Shown piece by piece: positions 12,381 to 45,740 of a DNA stretch of 49,292 nucleotides. Origin of the DNA: Halobacteriales archaeon QH_8_64_26. Lineage in GTDB: Archaea > Halobacteriota > Halobacteria > Halobacteriales > Halococcaceae. The DNA lies in assembly GCA_003021725.1 (NCBI GenBank), contig PXRA01000107.1, forward strand, positions 1 through 49,292, read 5' to 3'. The notes under the pieces were generated by a model, which worked only from the letters and a program-made list of their open reading frames with translations, was not told where the DNA came from and did not search any database. A program made the translations under genes and the position numbers. Numbering within the stretch: the first letter of the stretch is position 1; every line of letters starts with the position of its first letter.

Positions 12381-12661
12381 TGGTCGTCGGTGAGGTCGCC
12401 GCGCTCGACGCGAAGAACGGGATGGCACTCGGCGAGTTGGCCGAGCGCATCGCCGCGATCGAAAACGGGATCGAACGGTGCCGCGTCGCCGCCGGCCAAC
12501 GAAAGAGCGTTTACGTCTCGTTACTACAGTGTCACTTCCCGAAGCTCGACGACGCCGACGTTATCGAGTGGGACCGACGCAGCGGTGCCGTATCCCGAGG
12601 TCGTTCGGTCGACGAGCTGGCGGCCCTGATCGACGCCATCGAAGGCGTCTGTCCGGACTGA
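12329..12661 (+). CDS. DUF7344-like protein, 5' region possibly chimeric
   Basis: 110 codons from GTG 12329. From about residue 16 the sequence fits the haloarchaeal DUF7344 winged-helix-like family: MALGELAERIAAIENG, QRKSVYVSLLQCHFPKLDDADVIEWD and a C-terminal helix. Such domains are thought to act in transcription regulation. The first about 15 residues overlap, in another frame, the ThDP-enzyme remnant, so the original 5' end has probably been lost and the present start is a guess. It may be expressed or may itself be a remnant. Confidence 0.6.
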   Translation: MVNAGFRSPRASDVRHRLVVGEVAALDAKNGMALGELAERIAAIENGIERCRVAAGQRKSVYVSLLQCHFPKLDDADVIEWDRRSGAVSRGRSVDELAALIDAIEGVCPD

Positions 12662-18613: not shown

Positions 18614-18766
18614 ATGAGTGCCGATACCGACGAGCAGGTCAGCGCGGAACCGAGCGGCAGCGGACTGATCAGACATATCTTCGTAGCGATCGCTTTGTTC
18701 ACCCCTCCACTGATCATCAGCTATCTGCGCCTCCGACGGGGCGACGGCGGCCGGTCGGAGCGGTAG
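18614..18766 (+). CDS. Small single-span membrane protein
   Basis: 50 residues. An acidic polar N-terminus (about 18 residues) leads into one hydrophobic helix (IFVAIALFTPPLIISYL, about 22-38) and a short Arg-rich tail. The charge pattern, acidic before and basic after the helix, suggests the tail faces the cytoplasm. It lies alone between the synthetase gene and a possible 23-residue gene. No family recognised. Short haloarchaeal membrane proteins of this shape are common and poorly studied. Confidence 0.55.
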   Translation: MSADTDEQVSAEPSGSGLIRHIFVAIALFTPPLIISYLRLRRGDGGRSER

Positions 18767-18841
18767 GCCGTTCGTAGGCACGCCTGAAGCCTTCCCAAAA
18801 CGAAGGGGACGATTATGTCTATTGGAGTGTCTCGTTAGGCC

Positions 18842-18913
18842 ATGACGGCCACGGACCTCACCGACGAGGAGATCCCCGAGAAGGACAGCAACGTCGAACT
18901 CGAAGAGTCCTGA
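18842..18913 (+). CDS. Possible 23-residue acidic peptide
   Basis: ATG 18842 to TGA 18913 encodes a very acidic short peptide (TDLTDEEIPEKDSN core). A T-rich tract follows 19 bases after the stop, as expected for an archaeal terminator, which is why it is listed. It might instead be the preserved 5' end of a deleted gene. No family recognised. Confidence 0.3.
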   Translation: MTATDLTDEEIPEKDSNVELEES

Positions 18914-18932
18914 CTAGTACTGCTTCAGTTGC

Positions 18933-18938
18933 TTTTTT
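18933..18938 (+). terminator. T-rich transcription terminator candidate
   Basis: Run of six T just downstream of the 23-codon frame, in otherwise GC-rich DNA. Archaeal RNA polymerase stops at oligo-T; there is no stem requirement. Confidence 0.4.
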
Positions 18939-18981
18939 GTATGGAGATGGCAGCGAGCGGCGAAGGACTAACGACCAGGTA

Positions 18982-20064
18982 TCAGGTTCGACGGACTGCT
19001 AGCAGCGCGCCAGCGACCAGAGCAACGATGGCGCCGATGACGCCGAAGCCGGGACCAGTCGTCGAGGTTTCGGTTCCTTCGCTTCCACCCGAGGTGCCCG
19101 TCGCAGTTCCATCGGAAGTCATGCTCGTGCTGGAGGAAGGGACCCCAGTTCCGTCGGACGATCCAGCTTCCGTCATCTGGCTGGACGATCTCGTGTTACT
19201 GCCGGCTACTGCTGTGGTATCGTCGGTCGTCTGATACGCACTCCCGGATGACTCAGCCCCCTCAGTTGGCGTCTCGCTAGCGGTTCGTGCTGGTGTCGTC
19301 TGTGCTGCCTGCTCTGTATCGGTCCGTGTAGGCATCGCCGTAGTAGTCTCTCCGGATTCGTTTCGTTCCGTTTCAGTGGGCGTGCTGGTAACTGGGATGC
19401 TCGTCGTCGTGATCGTGGTCGGTGCTACGGTAGTCGCCGCCTCGGTTTCATCACCTACTGCTGTTTCCACTTGTGATGGAGGCGTCACAGTTTCGCTAGG
19501 AGTCGTGGTCTCGCCGGCTCCGGATCTATCATTCGATTCAGGTTCGTAGTTGACTACCCAGGACCACTCATCGACTACATCATCTGCCGTGACATCACCG
19601 TCCCACAGAACGACCGTCATATTGAGGTCGCCTCTATCGAATCGTTCGAGACTTTCTTCGTTGATCTGAATAGTGTCCTCGTACTTTAGAGCCGACCTCA
19701 CCTCATCAGTAGTCCTAATCGTCTCACCCTCAACCCTGATCTCGAAGTACGGATCACCGCTCCCAGCGATTACATCAGTGTCATCTAATGTCGTATCCGC
19801 TCGTATCGAGACGCCGAAATCCGAATAGTATCCATCGTCGTCACGATCCGTCGGCTCGACTGCTGTAGCCTGGTATATCCTCCCGCTTCCGCTCAGAATA
19901 GAGATGTCCCCCTGTCGGAGCGGTGGCGACGCTTGGGTGGTAACGTACTTTTGTATCCAACTGTCCATCGACGTTCCACTCACGTTTGCGACGATCTGCT
20001 TGAAATCGGATAGCGAAATCTCATCATTGGTATTCGCACTTCGATTGTTCATCCGACGGAACAC
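18982..20064 (-). pseudogene. C-terminal part of the surface metallopeptidase, with PGF-CTERM anchor
   Basis: 360 codons in exactly the same frame as the upstream gene at 20107-21609; 14 sense codons (20065-20106) bridge them, so only one TAG separates the two. The first 30 residues (VFRRMNNRS..., LSDFKQIVANVSG, WIQKYV) read as the helical end of the peptidase domain. A beta domain follows (about 45-165), then a long Thr/Ser/Glu linker, and finally a PGF-CTERM motif (PGF at 338-340), a hydrophobic helix and two arginines. PGF-CTERM proteins are cut and lipid-anchored by archaeosortase A. Alone, this half lacks a signal peptide and would not reach the surface. Confidence 0.72.
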
Positions 20065-20106
20065 GTCGGAAAGCGACTTCGTACTATCCGTTTCTGAGCG
20101 AATTCT

Positions 20107-21609
20107 CTAATCGAGAGCGTACAGTACTGCTGATCCCTTTTCGTATGGTTCAGGCGATATTTCCGAGTCGGACCATGTCGATCGATCTGCGAGCACGGCG
20201 TCTCGATACCTCCCTGGTTTGAGATGTTCAAGTGCTTCCTCATTATCGGTTCTTTGTTGCTTGTATGTCAATAGAGCAGCGTAGTATTCGGCGCTTGCTT
20301 CGGTAAACCACTCTGTTTTCGGCCCTAAGTTATCAGAATATAAGCCCCGCTCGAAGGATTGTCTGGTGTGGATGTACTCGTGCAGCCATACGTTCTCTAG
20401 GGTATTTAGCGCCGGTCCATCGATCAATATCCCTCCTTCATCCCCTACTACGAATTCATCCCTTTTTGGAAACGCATAACCTCCAGAGCGGATCGGTTCA
20501 GGGCCGGCGACCATTAAGACTTCAGAGTCGCGACTTCCCACGTGTAACTGTCCAGAGGCCAATGCGACTGAATGTAGAATCTCTCTAGAAGTTGGACCCA
20601 AGTTCGCCTCCTGTGGGACTATCAAACGAAGACGCTGACTGTTGTCAGTGAGTGCATACTCTTCATACTCTCCCAGGTATGTTAGACGCTGCCCTATCAC
20701 GCCCTGACTAAGAGCGTCTACCGTGACGTTTTCAGATGTTGATTTTTGAAGCGGTTCGGTGCTCTCGTAGCCGAGCGCATCTGTGCTCCAGTCAATGGTC
20801 ATCTCCGGGGTAGGAGCGAGAATCCAATCGCTTGTCCCCGCGTAATCTACCGCCCTCTGCTGGGCACTGCGATAGTCTGCTAAATCAATAGCATAGATTA
20901 GTGTTGGGATGCGTGCCGTTCCATTCCATCTGGCATAACCGCTAGAGGAGACATCAAATCCTTCAGAGTAAACCACGCCGGATTCGGACCCGCTTGATTG
21001 AGGTTTATAAAACGATATTCGGAACGACTCGGTATCCTGTGGCAGTCTACCCGTTATCCAGAACCTGACTTGTTCTGGATGAGCTGAGGAGTGGTATACT
21101 TCGATCTGCACGTTCGGTGCGCTTCCCGGTGGAAGAGCCGATTCATTTTGAACAGTCTCGTTTTCCGGAGTGGTCGTCGGTGAAACTGTCGTTGTTGTTG
21201 TTTCGGTTTCTTCAGTAGTTCGCTCCTCCGATTCCGTAGCCGGCTCGCTCGTTTCAGCGGTCGTACGGTTCGACTCTTGAGTTACAGCCGTGGAAGTCCG
21301 CGTCGGCACAGTCGTCTCAGTAGCGGCCGTCGTTGAGGTGGCTTCATCCATTGTTGAGGATCGTGTGGTTTCCTTTGCTGTCGACCTACCCGTCTCTGCT
21401 GGCTGCTTGGTTGTAGACCGGTTCGCCGTCGTGGATTCCGGCGCTAGAGTCGTTTCAACCTCAGTTTCAGTCTCGGTAGTCGAGTTGTTCTGCACCTGCG
21501 CAACACCGCTACCCGTTCCTCCAATCGCACCCGTCGCACCGCCCGCGAGCACCAACGCAACGAGCAAGAACGTGGCAAATACCCTCGTTGCTGTTACAGG
21601 GTCGCTCAA
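20107..21609 (-). CDS. N-terminal part of a secreted gluzincin-like metallopeptidase, ended by in-frame TAG
   Basis: 500 residues. A Sec signal peptide with hydrophobic core FATFLLVALVLAGGATGAIG is followed by a Thr/Ser/Glu-rich stalk (about 41-160), a beta domain, and a zinc protease module: HEYIH at 410-414 and W434-F-T-E437 as probable third ligand, with Tyr442-443 nearby. This resembles M1/M61-type gluzincins. The family C-terminal helices are missing here but continue in frame after the TAG at 20107-20109, giving an 875-residue product if that codon were sense. GC is visibly lower than in the flanking genes. It may be a nonsense mutation, a sequence error or readthrough. Confidence 0.75.
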   Translation of the reverse strand: MSDPVTATRVFATFLLVALVLAGGATGAIGGTGSGVAQVQNNSTTETETEVETTLAPESTTANRSTTKQPAETGRSTAKETTRSSTMDEATSTTAATETTVPTRTSTAVTQESNRTTAETSEPATESEERTTEETETTTTTVSPTTTPENETVQNESALPPGSAPNVQIEVYHSSAHPEQVRFWITGRLPQDTESFRISFYKPQSSGSESGVVYSEGFDVSSSGYARWNGTARIPTLIYAIDLADYRSAQQRAVDYAGTSDWILAPTPEMTIDWSTDALGYESTEPLQKSTSENVTVDALSQGVIGQRLTYLGEYEEYALTDNSQRLRLIVPQEANLGPTSREILHSVALASGQLHVGSRDSEVLMVAGPEPIRSGGYAFPKRDEFVVGDEGGILIDGPALNTLENVWLHEYIHTRQSFERGLYSDNLGPKTEWFTEASAEYYAALLTYKQQRTDNEEALEHLKPGRYRDAVLADRSTWSDSEISPEPYEKGSAVLYALD

Positions 21610-21701
21610 ACAGGTCCATAATAAATCTTCAGGCCTGGAGAGTAATTTGACCTACCGACGGAAGGAGGTAGAAATAAACTGACGAATAACGACTATTTTT
21701 C

Positions 21702-24527
21702 TCAGGCACTCAGCTGCCGGAGCACGTCGGGTGCATCGTCGAGGGCGTCGTCCACGTTCTCGCTTTCGGGACCGCCTCCTTGGGCGAAATCGGGCGGGCC
21801 CCCGCCCCCACCGCCGACTTTCGAGGCGAGTTCGCTCACGACCGCCCCGGCGTTCACCTCGACGCCCGTAGGGATCGCGACGACGAACTGGGCGCTGTCG
21901 CCCGCGGCGCTCGCGAGTACCGCGATCTCTCCTTCCTCGACGATCGCGTTCGCGGTCGCGCGTAGTTCTTCGATTCCACTATCGATGCGACGACAGACCG
22001 CTACCGTCTCGCCGATACTGATTTCCTCGCCGTCGCCCCCGCCGACCCGGGCCGCGGCGAGCTGTTCGTTCAGGTCCTCGATCCGTTTGCCCTGTTCTTT
22101 CCACTCCTCGAAGAAGCGCTCGGCGGTCTCGGGTACTTCCTCGGGCGCAACGTCTAGGGTCGCTGCGGCTTCGTAGAGAACGTCCTCGGTGTCCTGGGTC
22201 GCGGTGATAGCGGCCTCGCCCGCGGCGAACGAAAGACGTTCGACGCCGTCCTGAACGCGTTCGGTCGAGAGAACCTTGATCGCGCCGACGTCGCCGGTCG
22301 CCCCGACGTGGGTGCCCCCACAGGCCTGGACGTCCTCGGCGACGTGGATCAGCCTGATGTCGGTGCCAGGGGGCACCCCGCCCTGATAGAGGTCGAAGCC
22401 GTGTTCGGCCTCGGCGGCGTTGCGATCGGGCCACTCCTGGTGGACCGGGACGTTCCGCCCGACGATCGCGTTCGCTTGCCGCTCGATCGTCTTTACCTGC
22501 TCGCGGGAGATCCGGTCGTAGTGCCGGAGGTCGATGCGCGAGCGATCGGTACCTTTCTGTGCGCCGGCCTGGCGGACGTGCTCGCCGAGTACCTGCCGGG
22601 CGGCGTGAATCACGATGTGGGTCGCGGTGTGATGAGCCATCAGCCGGCGTCGGCGGGCGCGGTCGATCCGCCCGCGGATCATCTCGCCGGTGCCGGGGTC
22701 CTCGCTCGTGCGGTGGTAGACGACGCCCTCCCTGATCTGGGCGTCGGTCACCGGGATCGTCGCATCGTCGGTCCGCAGCGTCCCGTGGTCGGGTGGCTGG
22801 CCCCCGCCCTCCGGATAAAAGAGGGTCTGATCGAGCACGACGTCGTACTCGACGTCGTCGCCGCCGTCCTCGCCCTTCCCGTCCTCCCCGTCCGCTGGGT
22901 CGCGTTCGAGCACGTCGAGCACCACGGCCTCGAACTCAATGCCTTCAGGATCGTCGTAGTAGAGCCGGTCGGTCGCCGGGACGTCGGCGAGGGGGCCGTC
23001 GTGGCGCGTCGCCCCGGTTTCGGCGGCTTCGTCCTCGTCGGCGTGGCGCTCGGCGACGAGACGATAGAAGTCCTCGGGGATCGCCACGCTCGCTCCGACC
23101 TCGGCGGCGATCTCCTGAACCATGTCGGGCTCGATACCGTGGGAATCGTAGAGTTCGAGCAGCTCCTCGACCGGGATCGATTCGTCGCGCTCGGCGTACC
23201 CCTCGGCCAGTTGGCGCACCCGGCGACCGCCGCGATCGAGCGTTTCCCGGTACTTCTCGACTTCCGTGCGGACCATATCACGGATCGTATCGCGGTTCCC
23301 GTACCCGAGCCGCTCGGCTTGCATGTCGACGAGTTCGTCGAGCGGAGCGTCCACGCCCACCGTATCACAGAGGCGTTTGGTCCGCCGGAGGACCATTCGC
23401 GCGAGATAGCCCGTCCGGACATTGGAGGGGACGATGCCGTCGCCGAACATGTAGGCCAAGGTCCGGCAGTGATCGGCGATCGCATAGACGTCCTCCAAGG
23501 GTCCGAGCAGCGCCGTGAGTTCCGCGGTATCGACGTTCAACTCCGCGGCGATGTCCTCGCGGGCCGATTCGACGTTCGTCACCGCGTCGACGTCGAGGTT
23601 GCCCGAGCGCTTGGCCGCCCGGTGGACGAGGTCGTTCTCGGCGTCGGTGTACGCTATCTCGGCGTTTTCCTTGAGGAAGGCGATCATGTCGGGATAGATC
23701 GCCTCGTAGACGGTCGGAGTACCCTGGGAGACCCACGTCCAGCGTTCGAGGCCATAGCCGGTGTCGACGACGTAGGTGTCCATCTTCGAGTAGGTGTTGC
23801 CGTCTTTCAGCTCGTAGTCCCCTTCGGGATCCTGTTCCATCGACATGAAGACCAAGGTAGCGAGTTCCGCGCCCCGGAAGATGACTTCGATCGCCGGCCC
23901 GGCGTTCCCGCCACCGACCCAGGGGTCCTCGATGTAGGTGATCTCCTCCGGATCGGCACCCATCCACTCGAAAAAGGCGTCGCAGTACCGTACCGTCTCG
24001 TCCTTCCAGTAGACCTCGCCCTCGTAGGCGTATCGCCCGGGGTTCTCCAGGTCCTCGCGGGCGTTGAAGGCGTGGTGGGCCATCATCTCGAAGGCCATCG
24101 TATGCCGGCCGGTCTTCCCGACGTTGTCGATGTCCTGCATCCGGATGCAGGGCTGGGAGATACAGAGGGGATTCGCCGGCGGCGGGGTGGTCCCGGAGGT
24201 CACCAGCGGCTGGAAATCGTAGACCGACGCCTGCGTAAGCAGAACGTCGTCGCGCCAGCGGTTGGCCGCGACGGGATAGGGTTCGATCCGCTCGTGATCG
24301 TGCTCTTCGAAAAAGGAGAGAAAGGCCTCGCGCATCTCCTCCAAGGAGTACTCCTCCTCGAAGCCCGCGTTGTCGAGAAAGGAGTACTCCTCGCAGGGGG
24401 GCTCGCCACAGAGTTCGCGACCGTCGTCGCGCGTCCAGAAGAAATCGCCACAGCCGGCACACTCCTCTCTGGTAAAGCCTTCCTCCTCGAAGTAATCGAG
24501 GCGGTACTCCGCTTCGAGCGTACTCAT
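21702..24527 (-). CDS. alaS: Alanyl-tRNA synthetase
   Basis: 941 residues from ATG 24527. Charges tRNA-Ala. An archaeal-type N-terminal zinc-like insertion is visible (CAGCGDFFW and CGEPPCEEY), then class II motifs, including [10 protein letters not shown]-like [16 protein letters not shown] and the AHHAFN region. The editing domain has HHTATH and the CGGTH motif ([14 protein letters not shown]), and the C-terminal oligomerisation domain is present with a Gly-rich [15 protein letters not shown]. An upstream in-frame extension to 24752 lacks family features and is rejected. The start has a TATA-like element (TTCTATACC) about 45 bases upstream. Confidence 0.95.
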
Positions 24528-24886
24528 TGATATCGGCTCTGGCGAGCGGCGATCAAAAGCGTTCCGAACGGTATAGAAGCGCGCTCGCGCCTGTTTTCGT
24601 TTGCATCCGTCGGCACTCGGCGGGAACGCCGCCGGTATCACCGTCGCTACCGTTCGATCGTCGATCTCGATCGCTGGCAACTGTCGCAGCGAACGTATAG
24701 CTCTGCCGATCGACCCGCCGGCAACGAACGCCGACCAGCCGAGAGCGGTCATCGAACGACCTACCCGCTACCCGCGCCCCGCAGCCATAGGCAGTAACTA
24801 CCGGTTACTCGCCTCGGAACTCGACCGTATTCCGCCGAGTGGGACGTGCTGACGGGATACAGCCCAGGTCGTAATGTTAATGAGCT
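24528..24886. other. Divergent intergenic region, no gene seen
   Basis: About 360 bases between alaS (leftward) and the arylsulfotransferase-like gene (rightward). No coding frame with recognisable features. It should hold both promoters; a TATA-like block for alaS lies near 24568-24575, and AT-rich GTAATGTTAATGAG at 24871-24884 lies directly before the rightward start. Confidence 0.4.
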
Positions 24887-41883: not shown

Positions 41884-43779
41884 TCAGGCCGTCGTGCGTT
41901 CGAGCGCCGTCGAGAGGTCGGCCGGGATCTCGAAGTCGAGATACGATCCGCTTCCGACGTGTGAGAGCACGAGCCCGGTGGCGACGGCGTTGCGCGGCCC
42001 CAGCGCCGAGCGGACGTTCGCCCGGCCACAGACGATGCCGTACTCGGCCATCGCTTCGGAGACGAGTTCGGGAATCTCGAAATCCAGCGCCGATCGGCCC
42101 ACCATCACGACGAACGGCAGCCGGCGAATACTTCGGGTCGGGGTGATCAGGTTGAGCGCGCGCTCGGCGTTGGCGACGAAGACCTTCCGTTTGGCTCGAC
42201 GACGGGTGCGTCGGATCCCCTCGACCGAGGCGTCGATCGGGACGGCTTGCATCCCGCCGTCGTCTTCGAGCAGTACGGTCCGCCCGAACAGTTCCGGTTC
42301 GACCGGCTCGTCGAGAAAGGAGACGGTGCCGTCCTCCTCCCGGACCCGATAGAGGTCCTCGATCTTCGCGGCGGGGTGTTTCTTGATGGCTTCGGCCAGA
42401 TCCCGGTCGTCGACCCCCAGTTCCGAATCGATTATCATCGTCACCATATCGCCCGCCCCGGAGAGGTGGATCGAGTCGATCGCCCCGCTCTCGTCCATGT
42501 AGGCCGCGTCGGTCGAGCCGCCGCCGAGATCGAGGATCGCGAGCGGGTGGTCGGTCCCGGGGGTCGTGAGCGAGCCGAGCACGGCCATGTTCGCCTCGAC
42601 GCCCTGGATGAGAACCTCCGTATCGAGTTCGGCTTCGAGGCCCGCAGCGATCTGGTCCATCGGGAGTTGCTGGGTCTTTACCATCGCGGCGAGGGCTACC
42701 GCGCTTTCGGTGCTGTGTTCCTCGGCGACCGAGCCCTCGACCTGTTGGGGGACGAGCGTATCGACGGCCATAACATCCCTAATTTCGATCGCCTCGACCG
42801 CCTGGCCGGTTACCTCCGCCATACTCGCCCGCGCCCGATTCAACATGCCCCCGATATTGGAACCGCTCTCGCCCCGGACGTCGGCGACCGGCCAGCTGTC
42901 CGTGACCGCTTCCATGATTCGGTCGGCACCGTCGTCGACCGGCACTCCGGTCGTGTTGCCCCGTTCGTCGAGTATTTCGAGTTCGCCGGCCGGGATCGTC
43001 CGTTCCTCGACGTCGCCCTGGGGGGTCTCGATCACGACCGCGGATTTGTTGCCGACCAGCGCGCGAGCAACGGGAATTATCTTCTGAGTTTCCTCCGGGG
43101 AGAGATCGAAGACGGTCGCGATGCCGTAGGGGTTCGATAGCTCGTCGATCGTCTTCCCTGTGGATTCCGGCGCGACCTCGACCGCCGTCGGCTGGCTGCG
43201 GGGGACCTTCTCCAACCCCGCGACTTCGTCGACGATCGGGATCTCGACGTCGGTACGGTTGTCGATCAACACCGCGTCGTCCCGCTGGACGATCGCACCG
43301 ACGATCTCGAAGCCCGCCTCAGCCCAGTCGTCGATCGTCGCGGCGGCAGCGGCGAAATCCACCGTCTCGGGGACGAGAAAGACGATCGGCTCCTCGGTAG
43401 CGAACCTCTCGGGATCGGCCGTGATCTCGACGCCGATCCCGCTGCCCAACCCGACGCCGCCAGGCGTCGAAGGGTCGTGGCCGATCATCGTCGATTCGGT
43501 GATGACGGTCTCGGTGATCGTCTCCATCGCCACGTCCCCGATGACCGGCGCGGCCTCGTTGAGCGACACCCGGTCGATCCCGCTCACCTCGATGCCTGCC
43601 GTCTCGGCCGCCCGCGAGAGCGCGTTCACGACGCCGGGGACGTTCTTCTTCGTGCCTTTCAGGCCGGTCGTCCGGTACAGCGCGCTCGAGACGAACTCGC
43701 CCTCGCCGTCCTCCGAGCGGCCGAAGAGCGCGACCTCGGTGCTCGAATTCCCGATGTCCACGCCCGCGACGTACTCCAT
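41884..43779 (-). CDS. pduG: Diol/glycerol dehydratase reactivase, large (ATPase) subunit
   Basis: 631 residues. Hsp70-like ATPase that extracts inactive cobalamin from the dehydratase. The phosphate-1 loop is AGVDIGNSSTEVALFG, and VIGDVAMETITETVITESTMIGHDPSTPGGVGLG, ESGSNIGGMLNRAR, TTPGTDHPLAILDLGGGSTDAAYMDE and DFEIPELVSEAMAEYGIVCGRANVR all match bacterial DdrA/PduG over the full length. It is divergent from the dehydratase genes, with 233 bases between. The divergent arrangement differs from the co-directional order usual in bacteria. Confidence 0.92.
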   Translation of the reverse strand: MEYVAGVDIGNSSTEVALFGRSEDGEGEFVSSALYRTTGLKGTKKNVPGVVNALSRAAETAGIEVSGIDRVSLNEAAPVIGDVAMETITETVITESTMIGHDPSTPGGVGLGSGIGVEITADPERFATEEPIVFLVPETVDFAAAAATIDDWAEAGFEIVGAIVQRDDAVLIDNRTDVEIPIVDEVAGLEKVPRSQPTAVEVAPESTGKTIDELSNPYGIATVFDLSPEETQKIIPVARALVGNKSAVVIETPQGDVEERTIPAGELEILDERGNTTGVPVDDGADRIMEAVTDSWPVADVRGESGSNIGGMLNRARASMAEVTGQAVEAIEIRDVMAVDTLVPQQVEGSVAEEHSTESAVALAAMVKTQQLPMDQIAAGLEAELDTEVLIQGVEANMAVLGSLTTPGTDHPLAILDLGGGSTDAAYMDESGAIDSIHLSGAGDMVTMIIDSELGVDDRDLAEAIKKHPAAKIEDLYRVREEDGTVSFLDEPVEPELFGRTVLLEDDGGMQAVPIDASVEGIRRTRRRAKRKVFVANAERALNLITPTRSIRRLPFVVMVGRSALDFEIPELVSEAMAEYGIVCGRANVRSALGPRNAVATGLVLSHVGSGSYLDFEIPADLSTALERTTA

Positions 43780-44012
43780 AGCTACCCCACCGACAGAAGC
43801 TACAAAGGTGTTCCTCCGACCGACGATCGGTTCGCTACCAGCGGGTCGGTGACCGAGACGGGACGCCGAGATCGCCGAGGCCGGCGTCGCGTCGATCGGA
43901 CACGGTGGTGACTACTAACGAAAGGGAGGTTTAACGAACGATAGTTTCTTTTTTGTTCAACAGTGTAAAAACGCGAAGCTATATCGGTTCCTCGCCCGAG
44001 CGTGCGTGTGTA
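43780..44012. promoter_or_regulatory. Divergent control region of reactivase and dehydratase operons
   Basis: 233 bases with AT-rich stretches in the half near pduC. For pduC, GTGTAAAAAC at 43964-43973 and CTATATCGG at 43979-43987 are TATA candidates; the second predicts a near-leaderless transcript. AACGAACGATAG and TTTTTTGTTCAAC (43934-43961) are AT-rich and include partly inverted AAC-N-GTT elements, a possible operator. No leader peptide or riboswitch is convincing, and no B12-riboswitch core is seen. Confidence 0.45.
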
Positions 44013-45740
44013 ATGTCAGAAGATGACACGCCCGCGGCGGACGGGTCGGGGGAGGTAGAACGAACCGAACCCAGGCGCTCGAAGCGCTTCGAGCGCCTGG
44101 GCGAACGTGGGGTGACCGAGGACGGGTTCGTCGACGAGTGGCCGGAGGTGGGCTTCGTCGCGATGGAGAGCCCGAACGATCCCGATCCGAGCGTCACCGT
44201 CGAGGACGGACGGATAGTCGAGATGGACGGGAAGAGAAGGGAAGAGTTCGACTTCATCGATCGGTTCATCGCGGATTACGCGATCGACGTCGAGCGAGCG
44301 GAGGAAGCGATGGCGATCGATTCCGTCGCGTTCGCCCGCGACCTCGTCGACATCAACGTTTCCCGCGAGGAGGTAATCGAGCGCTCGACGGCGATGACCC
44401 CGGCCAAACTGGCGGCGGTCGTGAATCGACTCGACACCGCCGAGATCATCATGGCGATGAAGAAGATGCGCACGCGGGGGACGCCGGCCAACCAGTGTCA
44501 CGTCACGAGCGTCGAGGACAACGTGGCCCAGATCGCCGCCGACGCGGCCGAGGCCGCGTTGCGTGGTTTTCACGAGTCCGAAAACACCGTGGGCGTCGCC
44601 CGGATGGCACCCCTCACCGCACTGGCCCAGCAGATCGGTGCCCAGTGCGGTCGGGGTGGGGTCATCACCCAGTGCGCAGTCGAGGAAGCGACCGAACTCG
44701 AACTCGGGATGCGCGGGATGACCGGCTACGCCGAGACGGTCTCGGTCTATGGCACCGAGGACGTCTTCAAGGACGGCGACGACACCCCCTGGTCGAAGGC
44801 CTTCCTCGCCTCGGGCTATGCCTCTCGAGGGTTGAAGATGCGGTATACCTCCGGGGCGGGCTCGGAGCTCAACATGGGCCAGGCCGAGGGCAAGTCGATG
44901 TTGTACTTAGAGACCCGCTGTGTCCTGGTAACCAAAGGTTGTGGGGTCCAGGGCCTACAGAACGGCGGGATCAGCTGCATCGCGATCCCGACCTCGGTGC
45001 CGGCGGGGGTCAAGGAAGTCGCCGCCGAGAACCTGGTGACGATGCTCGCCGACTTGGAGGTCGCCTCGGGGAACGACCAGACGTTTACTCACTCCGATAA
45101 GCGCCGCACGGCCCGGATGATGCCCCAGTTCCTCGCGGGGACCGACTTCATCTTCTCGGGGTATAGTGCCGTGCCGAACTACGACGACATGTTCGCCGGC
45201 TCGACGTTCGATTCCGCCGATTTCGACGAGTACAACGTCATGCAGCGGGACCTCCAGGTCGAAGGCGGCACCCGACCGGTCGACGAGGACACCGTACTGG
45301 AGTACCGCGAGCGGGCGGTCAGGGCCCTGCAGACCGTCTTCGAGGAACTGGGCTTCCCGCCGATCACCGAGGAGGAAATAGAGGCTGCGATCTACGCCGA
45401 CGGCAGCACGGACATGCCCGAGCGAAGCACCGCCCAGGACATCGAGGCCGCCGAGGAGATGATGGACGCGAGCGTCACCGGGGCCGATATCGTCACGATC
45501 CTCGCCGAGAGTGGCTTCGAGGGCATCGCCGAGAACCTCTTGGGGATCCTCAAGGGCCGGGTCGCGGGCGATTACATCCAGACCTCGGGGGTCTTCGAAG
45601 GCGATGGGGAGTTCGACGTCGTGAGCGCGGTCAACGACCCCAACGAGTACCAGGGTCCGGGAACGGGCCACCGCTTGGAGGGCGAGGACTGGGAGGAAAA
45701 GAAGAACGTTCGCTTCGCCGTCGACCCGGAGGACATCTGA
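44013..45740 (+). CDS. pduC: B12-dependent diol/glycerol dehydratase, large subunit
   Basis: 575 residues from ATG 44013. Removes water from 1,2-diols or glycerol to give an aldehyde by a radical mechanism with adenosylcobalamin. After a 21-residue acidic extension, the core starts at RSKRFERL. Active-site blocks are conserved: NQCHVT (substrate and metal Gln/His), ENTVGVAR, YAETVSVYGTEDVF, GVQGLQNGGISC, NDQTFTHSD (Asp-Gln pair) and FSGYSAVPNYDDMFAGS. Substrate-contact Ser and Gln match the diol type, but the same residues occur in glycerol dehydratases. It heads a three-subunit operon; the stop is one base before the medium-subunit ATG. Confidence 0.94.
   Translation: MSEDDTPAADGSGEVERTEPRRSKRFERLGERGVTEDGFVDEWPEVGFVAMESPNDPDPSVTVEDGRIVEMDGKRREEFDFIDRFIADYAIDVERAEEAMAIDSVAFARDLVDINVSREEVIERSTAMTPAKLAAVVNRLDTAEIIMAMKKMRTRGTPANQCHVTSVEDNVAQIAADAAEAALRGFHESENTVGVARMAPLTALAQQIGAQCGRGGVITQCAVEEATELELGMRGMTGYAETVSVYGTEDVFKDGDDTPWSKAFLASGYASRGLKMRYTSGAGSELNMGQAEGKSMLYLETRCVLVTKGCGVQGLQNGGISCIAIPTSVPAGVKEVAAENLVTMLADLEVASGNDQTFTHSDKRRTARMMPQFLAGTDFIFSGYSAVPNYDDMFAGSTFDSADFDEYNVMQRDLQVEGGTRPVDEDTVLEYRERAVRALQTVFEELGFPPITEEEIEAAIYADGSTDMPERSTAQDIEAAEEMMDASVTGADIVTILAESGFEGIAENLLGILKGRVAGDYIQTSGVFEGDGEFDVVSAVNDPNEYQGPGTGHRLEGEDWEEKKNVRFAVDPEDI
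44070..44101. repeat. Perfect 32-base palindrome inside pduC
   Basis: Two 16-base halves, CCCAGGCGCTCGAAGC and its exact reverse complement, meet without spacer at 44085/44086. It begins 57 bases after the pduC start and encodes the segment R-R-S-K-R-F-E-R-L at the junction of the extra acidic tail and the conserved core. It could form a strong RNA hairpin or bind a dimeric protein. Confidence 0.85.

Follow-up and report, generated by a model that had tools for sequence, protein, structure and literature searches.

A single in-frame TAG, probably a recent nonsense substitution, interrupts an M61-like surface peptidase gene in a haloarchaeal genome

The window analyzed here, a 49,292-nucleotide stretch of a contig from Halobacteriales archaeon QH_8_64_26, contains a minus-strand frame of 875 codons (21609-18985) whose sole internal stop is a TAG at 20109-20107 (residue 501), raising the question of whether the gene is mutated, misread in the assembly or genuinely translated through the stop. 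The first-pass annotation had described one TAG splitting an 875-residue surface metallopeptidase and treated these three possibilities as equals. Translation of the frame (21609-18982) bears out the single interruption: 500 codons precede the TAG, and 374 sense codons follow it, with no further stop before the terminal TGA. The first GTG past the TAG lies at 20064, with 14 sense codons in between, in agreement with the earlier count. An in-frame ATG is absent and the sole usable in-frame start is a TTG at 21609, which is accompanied by a plausible signal peptide; the N-terminal start of the gene is uncertain. The ATG nearest to the start (21619) lies in a different frame, possibly owing to a second lesion or error. 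The features of the locus are listed in Table 1.

Table 1. Coordinates of the interrupted peptidase gene and its surroundings in the window.
Feature	Position	Strand	Basis or remark
N part, 500 codons: signal peptide, Thr/Ser-rich linker, beta domain, zinc-site half of peptidase domain	20110..21609	-	
HEYIH zinc motif (residues 410-414)	20368..20382	-	H, E, Y, H invariant in family alignment A1
Glu437 of TEASAEYY	20299..20301	-	Invariant in family alignment A1
In-frame TAG (residue 501), within predicted peptidase-domain helix	20107..20109	-	Homologue alignment and structure model
Rest of peptidase domain: end of interrupted helix and three more predicted helices	19915..20106	-	
C-terminal module, ~residues 578-690 (~110 residues)	19540..19878	-	Recurs in other surface proteins
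PGF-CTERM sorting signal	18985..19068	-	TIGR04126 35.6 bits, cut-off 24.5
Low-GC segment, absent at same site in three congeneric genomes	18785..21700	.	

Homologues of the peptidase were found in 291 of 394 genomes sampled from the order, the best at ~40% identity, and none among the matches listed in this search has an internal stop. All 52 of the haloarchaeal homologues that we aligned continue beyond the TAG column, where each has a sense codon encoding one of nine kinds of residue (R in 21, A in 13, E in 6, Y in 4, G in 3, T in 2, and D, Q and V). Four of them have GAG, one substitution away from TAG. A motif, LD-x-x-I-R ... S-L-x-D-V-F-x-R-(L/M)-N, runs unbroken over this region, and together with the varied sense residues it indicates that no homologue ends at the TAG and that the position is not catalytic. 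Homologues that naturally stop there, which the first-pass annotation had named as evidence against a broken gene, were thus not seen (0 of 52). The continuous alignments also support its view that the two halves belong to a single surface metallopeptidase. That two ORFs lie side by side by chance was ruled out on the same alignments, and a chimeric join at the TAG was ruled out because homologues align on both sides as well as over it.

From its N terminus, the encoded protein has a signal peptide followed by a Thr/Ser-rich linker and a beta-rich domain, then the M61-like zinc-peptidase domain (HEYIH/E) and a small shared module; another Thr-rich linker leads to the PGF-CTERM anchor. As first proposed, the signal peptide and HEYIH site lie in the N half, and the C half carries the anchor, which scored above the family cut-off and lies after the TAG. 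The module between residues 578 and 690, which had been overlooked as a separate unit, is also found in other surface proteins of haloarchaea, among them some that have SNase-type nucleases. H410, E411, H414 and E437 are invariant, in agreement with the gluzincin clan (M1/M61-like), which is defined by HExxH, a downstream Glu and a thermolysin-like fold, and by analogy with gluzincins Glu437 is the probable third zinc ligand. The query had no hit to Pfam M61 at E-values of 10 or below, and the homologues had none at 0.1 or below; because Pfam does not assign the protein to M61, we use the label M61-like. A family profile searched against the PDB gave weak matches to M61 aminopeptidases (7xyo, E 0.0016; 4fgm, E 0.0061), and M61 and M1 aminopeptidases were among the top fold matches of a low-confidence model. 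Since the mean pLDDT of this model was 52.8, we relied only on its secondary structure within the peptidase core. In the model, the TAG corresponds to residue 338, within a predicted 20-residue helix (324-343) followed by three further helices.

This placement bears on whether the two halves of the locus might each yield a functional polypeptide, the first a truncated peptidase that is secreted and the second a C part whose translation restarts at GTG 20064. In favor of this arrangement, the zinc ligands all lie upstream of the TAG and a potential restart codon follows shortly after it. However, the stop would fall in mid-helix with the loss of three more predicted helices, the C part would be without a signal peptide, and no homologue has this organization; we consider two functional products very unlikely.

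The frame on either side of the TAG remains conserved, with no accumulated further lesions except possibly the missing in-frame ATG, as in a young pseudogene. Conserved columns are kept at 66 of 83 positions before the TAG and 20 of 27 after it (homologue means, 78% and 70%), both within the homologue range. This near-equal conservation argues that selection still acted on the codons after the TAG until recently and that the stop is young, in line with the first-pass description of it as fresh. The open frame points the same way, since a run of 374 codons free of selection would probably have acquired a further stop: the chance of no new stop is P 0.03 at ~0.1 substitutions per site and 0.51 at 0.02, so that ~0.1 substitutions per site is probably a loose upper bound on its age. 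An open, domain-complete remainder of the frame would also be expected from readthrough or from a sequence error.

The genomic setting, also missed in the first reading, is that of an accessory gene. The peptidase gene lies downstream of alaS (21702-24752) within an inserted segment that is absent at this site from three congeneric genomes. In the closest congener (G001), sequence matching position 18757 of the window follows ~155 bases after alaS; a second (G002) resumes ~600 bases past alaS with the downstream AMP-binding-enzyme gene; the third (G003) has no trace of the peptidase at the alaS site. The GC content of the inserted 2.9 kb is 48-61% versus ~65% around it, and the GC3 of the peptidase gene is ~0.5-0.57 versus a mean of 0.77. 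Relatives of the peptidase occur in thirteen haloarchaeal plasmid records, including Haladaptatus megaplasmids; none was found in the viral contigs searched. The absence from congeners, low GC3 and megaplasmid relatives together identify the gene, by sequence comparison, as a lineage-specific accessory gene that was acquired, probably horizontally, and that is particular to this species among the four genomes of the genus compared. The genome encodes another relative on contig C12 (34% identity); it is a separate member of the family, and its counterparts in the congeners are intact. A 23-codon acidic ORF, MTATDLTDEEIPEKDSNVELEES (window 18842-18913, plus strand), lies at the edge of the inserted segment and is followed by a T-rich stretch. 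Elsewhere in the window (41884-45740) this haloarchaeal genome has divergent diol dehydratase reactivase and diol/glycerol dehydratase large subunit genes.

Lesions like this one are not unique in the genome, a point absent from the first-pass annotation. On contig C12, an otherwise open REC-PAS-PAS-GAF histidine kinase gene (L114:11498-14338) is split by a TAG at 12434, with 312 codons before the stop and 633 after. At this site the two nearest congeners read CGG (Arg), without a stop. Third codon positions are the most diverged on both sides of the TAG in comparison with the congeners, indicating that the part after it has also been under selection. On contig C58, the frame of a Thr-rich surface protein is broken by a TGA (L103:13293, minus strand); coding signal is present before and after it, and the next 70 codons include no start codon. 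A PAS-protein stretch with two TGA and one TAG (G000:C32:5232-5582) is a probable older pseudogene.

A second in-frame TAG in the same genome, a conserved open frame past the peptidase stop and a site tolerant of many residues would all be compatible with readthrough of the UAG, whether as pyrrolysine or with the help of a suppressor tRNA, to give the full-length protein. The decoding machinery was not found: the best PylS match in this 88% complete genome scored 24.9 bits against a cut-off of 178 (in a control set of 14 genomes including Methanosarcina acetivorans, one gave a match above the cut-off), and no CUA anticodon was present among the 38 tRNAs recovered, an incomplete set in which three intron-containing tRNAs were read by hand. 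Pyrrolysine or suppressor decoding was rejected on these grounds, as far as the incomplete genome shows. TAG is a normal terminator here, ending 55 of 210 sampled ORFs (~26%), and is not rare or absent as genome-wide UAG reassignment would entail. Nor did a coding-potential scan of ~669 kb (~22% of the genome, in sampled stretches) reveal an excess of TAG interruptions; its 23 candidates were mostly neighboring genes in one frame, and it misses low-GC genes like this peptidase. An earlier, looser scan was dominated by shadow frames. Terminator usage and the ~669 kb scan together led us to reject pervasive UAG recoding. RNA structure downstream of the peptidase TAG was not significant (z -1.1 to 0). 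In Archaea, stop codon readthrough has been demonstrated only for Sec and Pyl (PMC8211752, a review), and our literature search found no haloarchaeal case. Readthrough confined to a few genes such as the peptidase and the C12 kinase, through near-cognate decoding or a suppressor tRNA encoded where the assembly is incomplete, thus appears extremely improbable. The two TAG genes and the C58 TGA case in ~669 kb are more in keeping with the ordinary occurrence of recent nonsense alleles, or with modestly frequent sequence errors, than with recoding. Of the three explanations first offered as equals, the evidence favors mutation or error, and readthrough is extremely improbable.

Between these two, an error in the sequence or consensus, or a minority allele in the draft consensus of an organism whose gene is intact, is the chief alternative to mutation, possible but rather unlikely. 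One altered base would explain everything in an otherwise intact gene, and the source is a single draft assembly of 116 contigs. Against this, for the three recognized stops in ~669 kb all to be wrong would by our estimate, which uses 3.3% as the share of substitutions that create a stop, need ~1e-4 substitution errors per base, and such a rate is high for a short-read consensus. Decay is moreover to be expected for a gene like this peptidase.

Overall these results are best explained by a recent single nonsense substitution in an acquired, PGF-CTERM-anchored surface zinc peptidase gene, an account we regard as probable. The lineage would have gained the gene, probably horizontally, and a single substitution would recently have struck it. 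The TAG, read from one draft assembly, is presumably real in the organism's DNA, and UAG would be expected to terminate at residue 501. Translation would then stop at residue 500, within the peptidase domain and ahead of the anchor, and the truncated product would presumably be non-functional, making the gene either a recently formed pseudogene or, within the population, an inactivated allele. The gene is probably dispensable. Taken as a nonsense allele, it illustrates on a small scale the gain and loss of acquired haloarchaeal surface enzymes; it would be of greater importance only if proteomics showed full-length protein, because archaeal readthrough beyond pyrrolysine and selenocysteine is, according to the review cited above, undemonstrated.

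Several known systems resemble this locus in part. The M61 aminopeptidases (PDB 7xyo, 4fgm) are alike in their profile matches and top fold matches, but the sequence match is weak, the TM-score on the low-confidence model is only 0.30-0.37 and there is no Pfam M61 domain here. The haloarchaeal M61-like surface peptidases annotated as 'glycyl aminopeptidase' on Haladaptatus megaplasmids share the beta domain, the HEYxH/E peptidase domain and the helical end at 33-40% identity over ~340-410 residues. These are uninterrupted, however, and the closest (~450-510-residue frames) are without the extra C module and the long PGF-CTERM tail. The pyrrolysine UAG recoding of methanogens likewise places an in-frame UAG within a conserved gene, whereas here no Pyl machinery was found and the TAG stands at a variable, non-catalytic position. 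An unannotated relative of the peptidase (L127:2501-3395) on the megaplasmid of Halorubrum ezzemoulense Fb21 (NZ_CP034941) is spread over two frames, and genes for IS4 and IS1595 transposases lie within ~2.5 kb of it on either side. It too is a broken family member on an accessory replicon with transposases nearby, and so a precedent for decay in this family, but it shows only ~26-36% identity and its lesion is a change of frame, not one nonsense codon.
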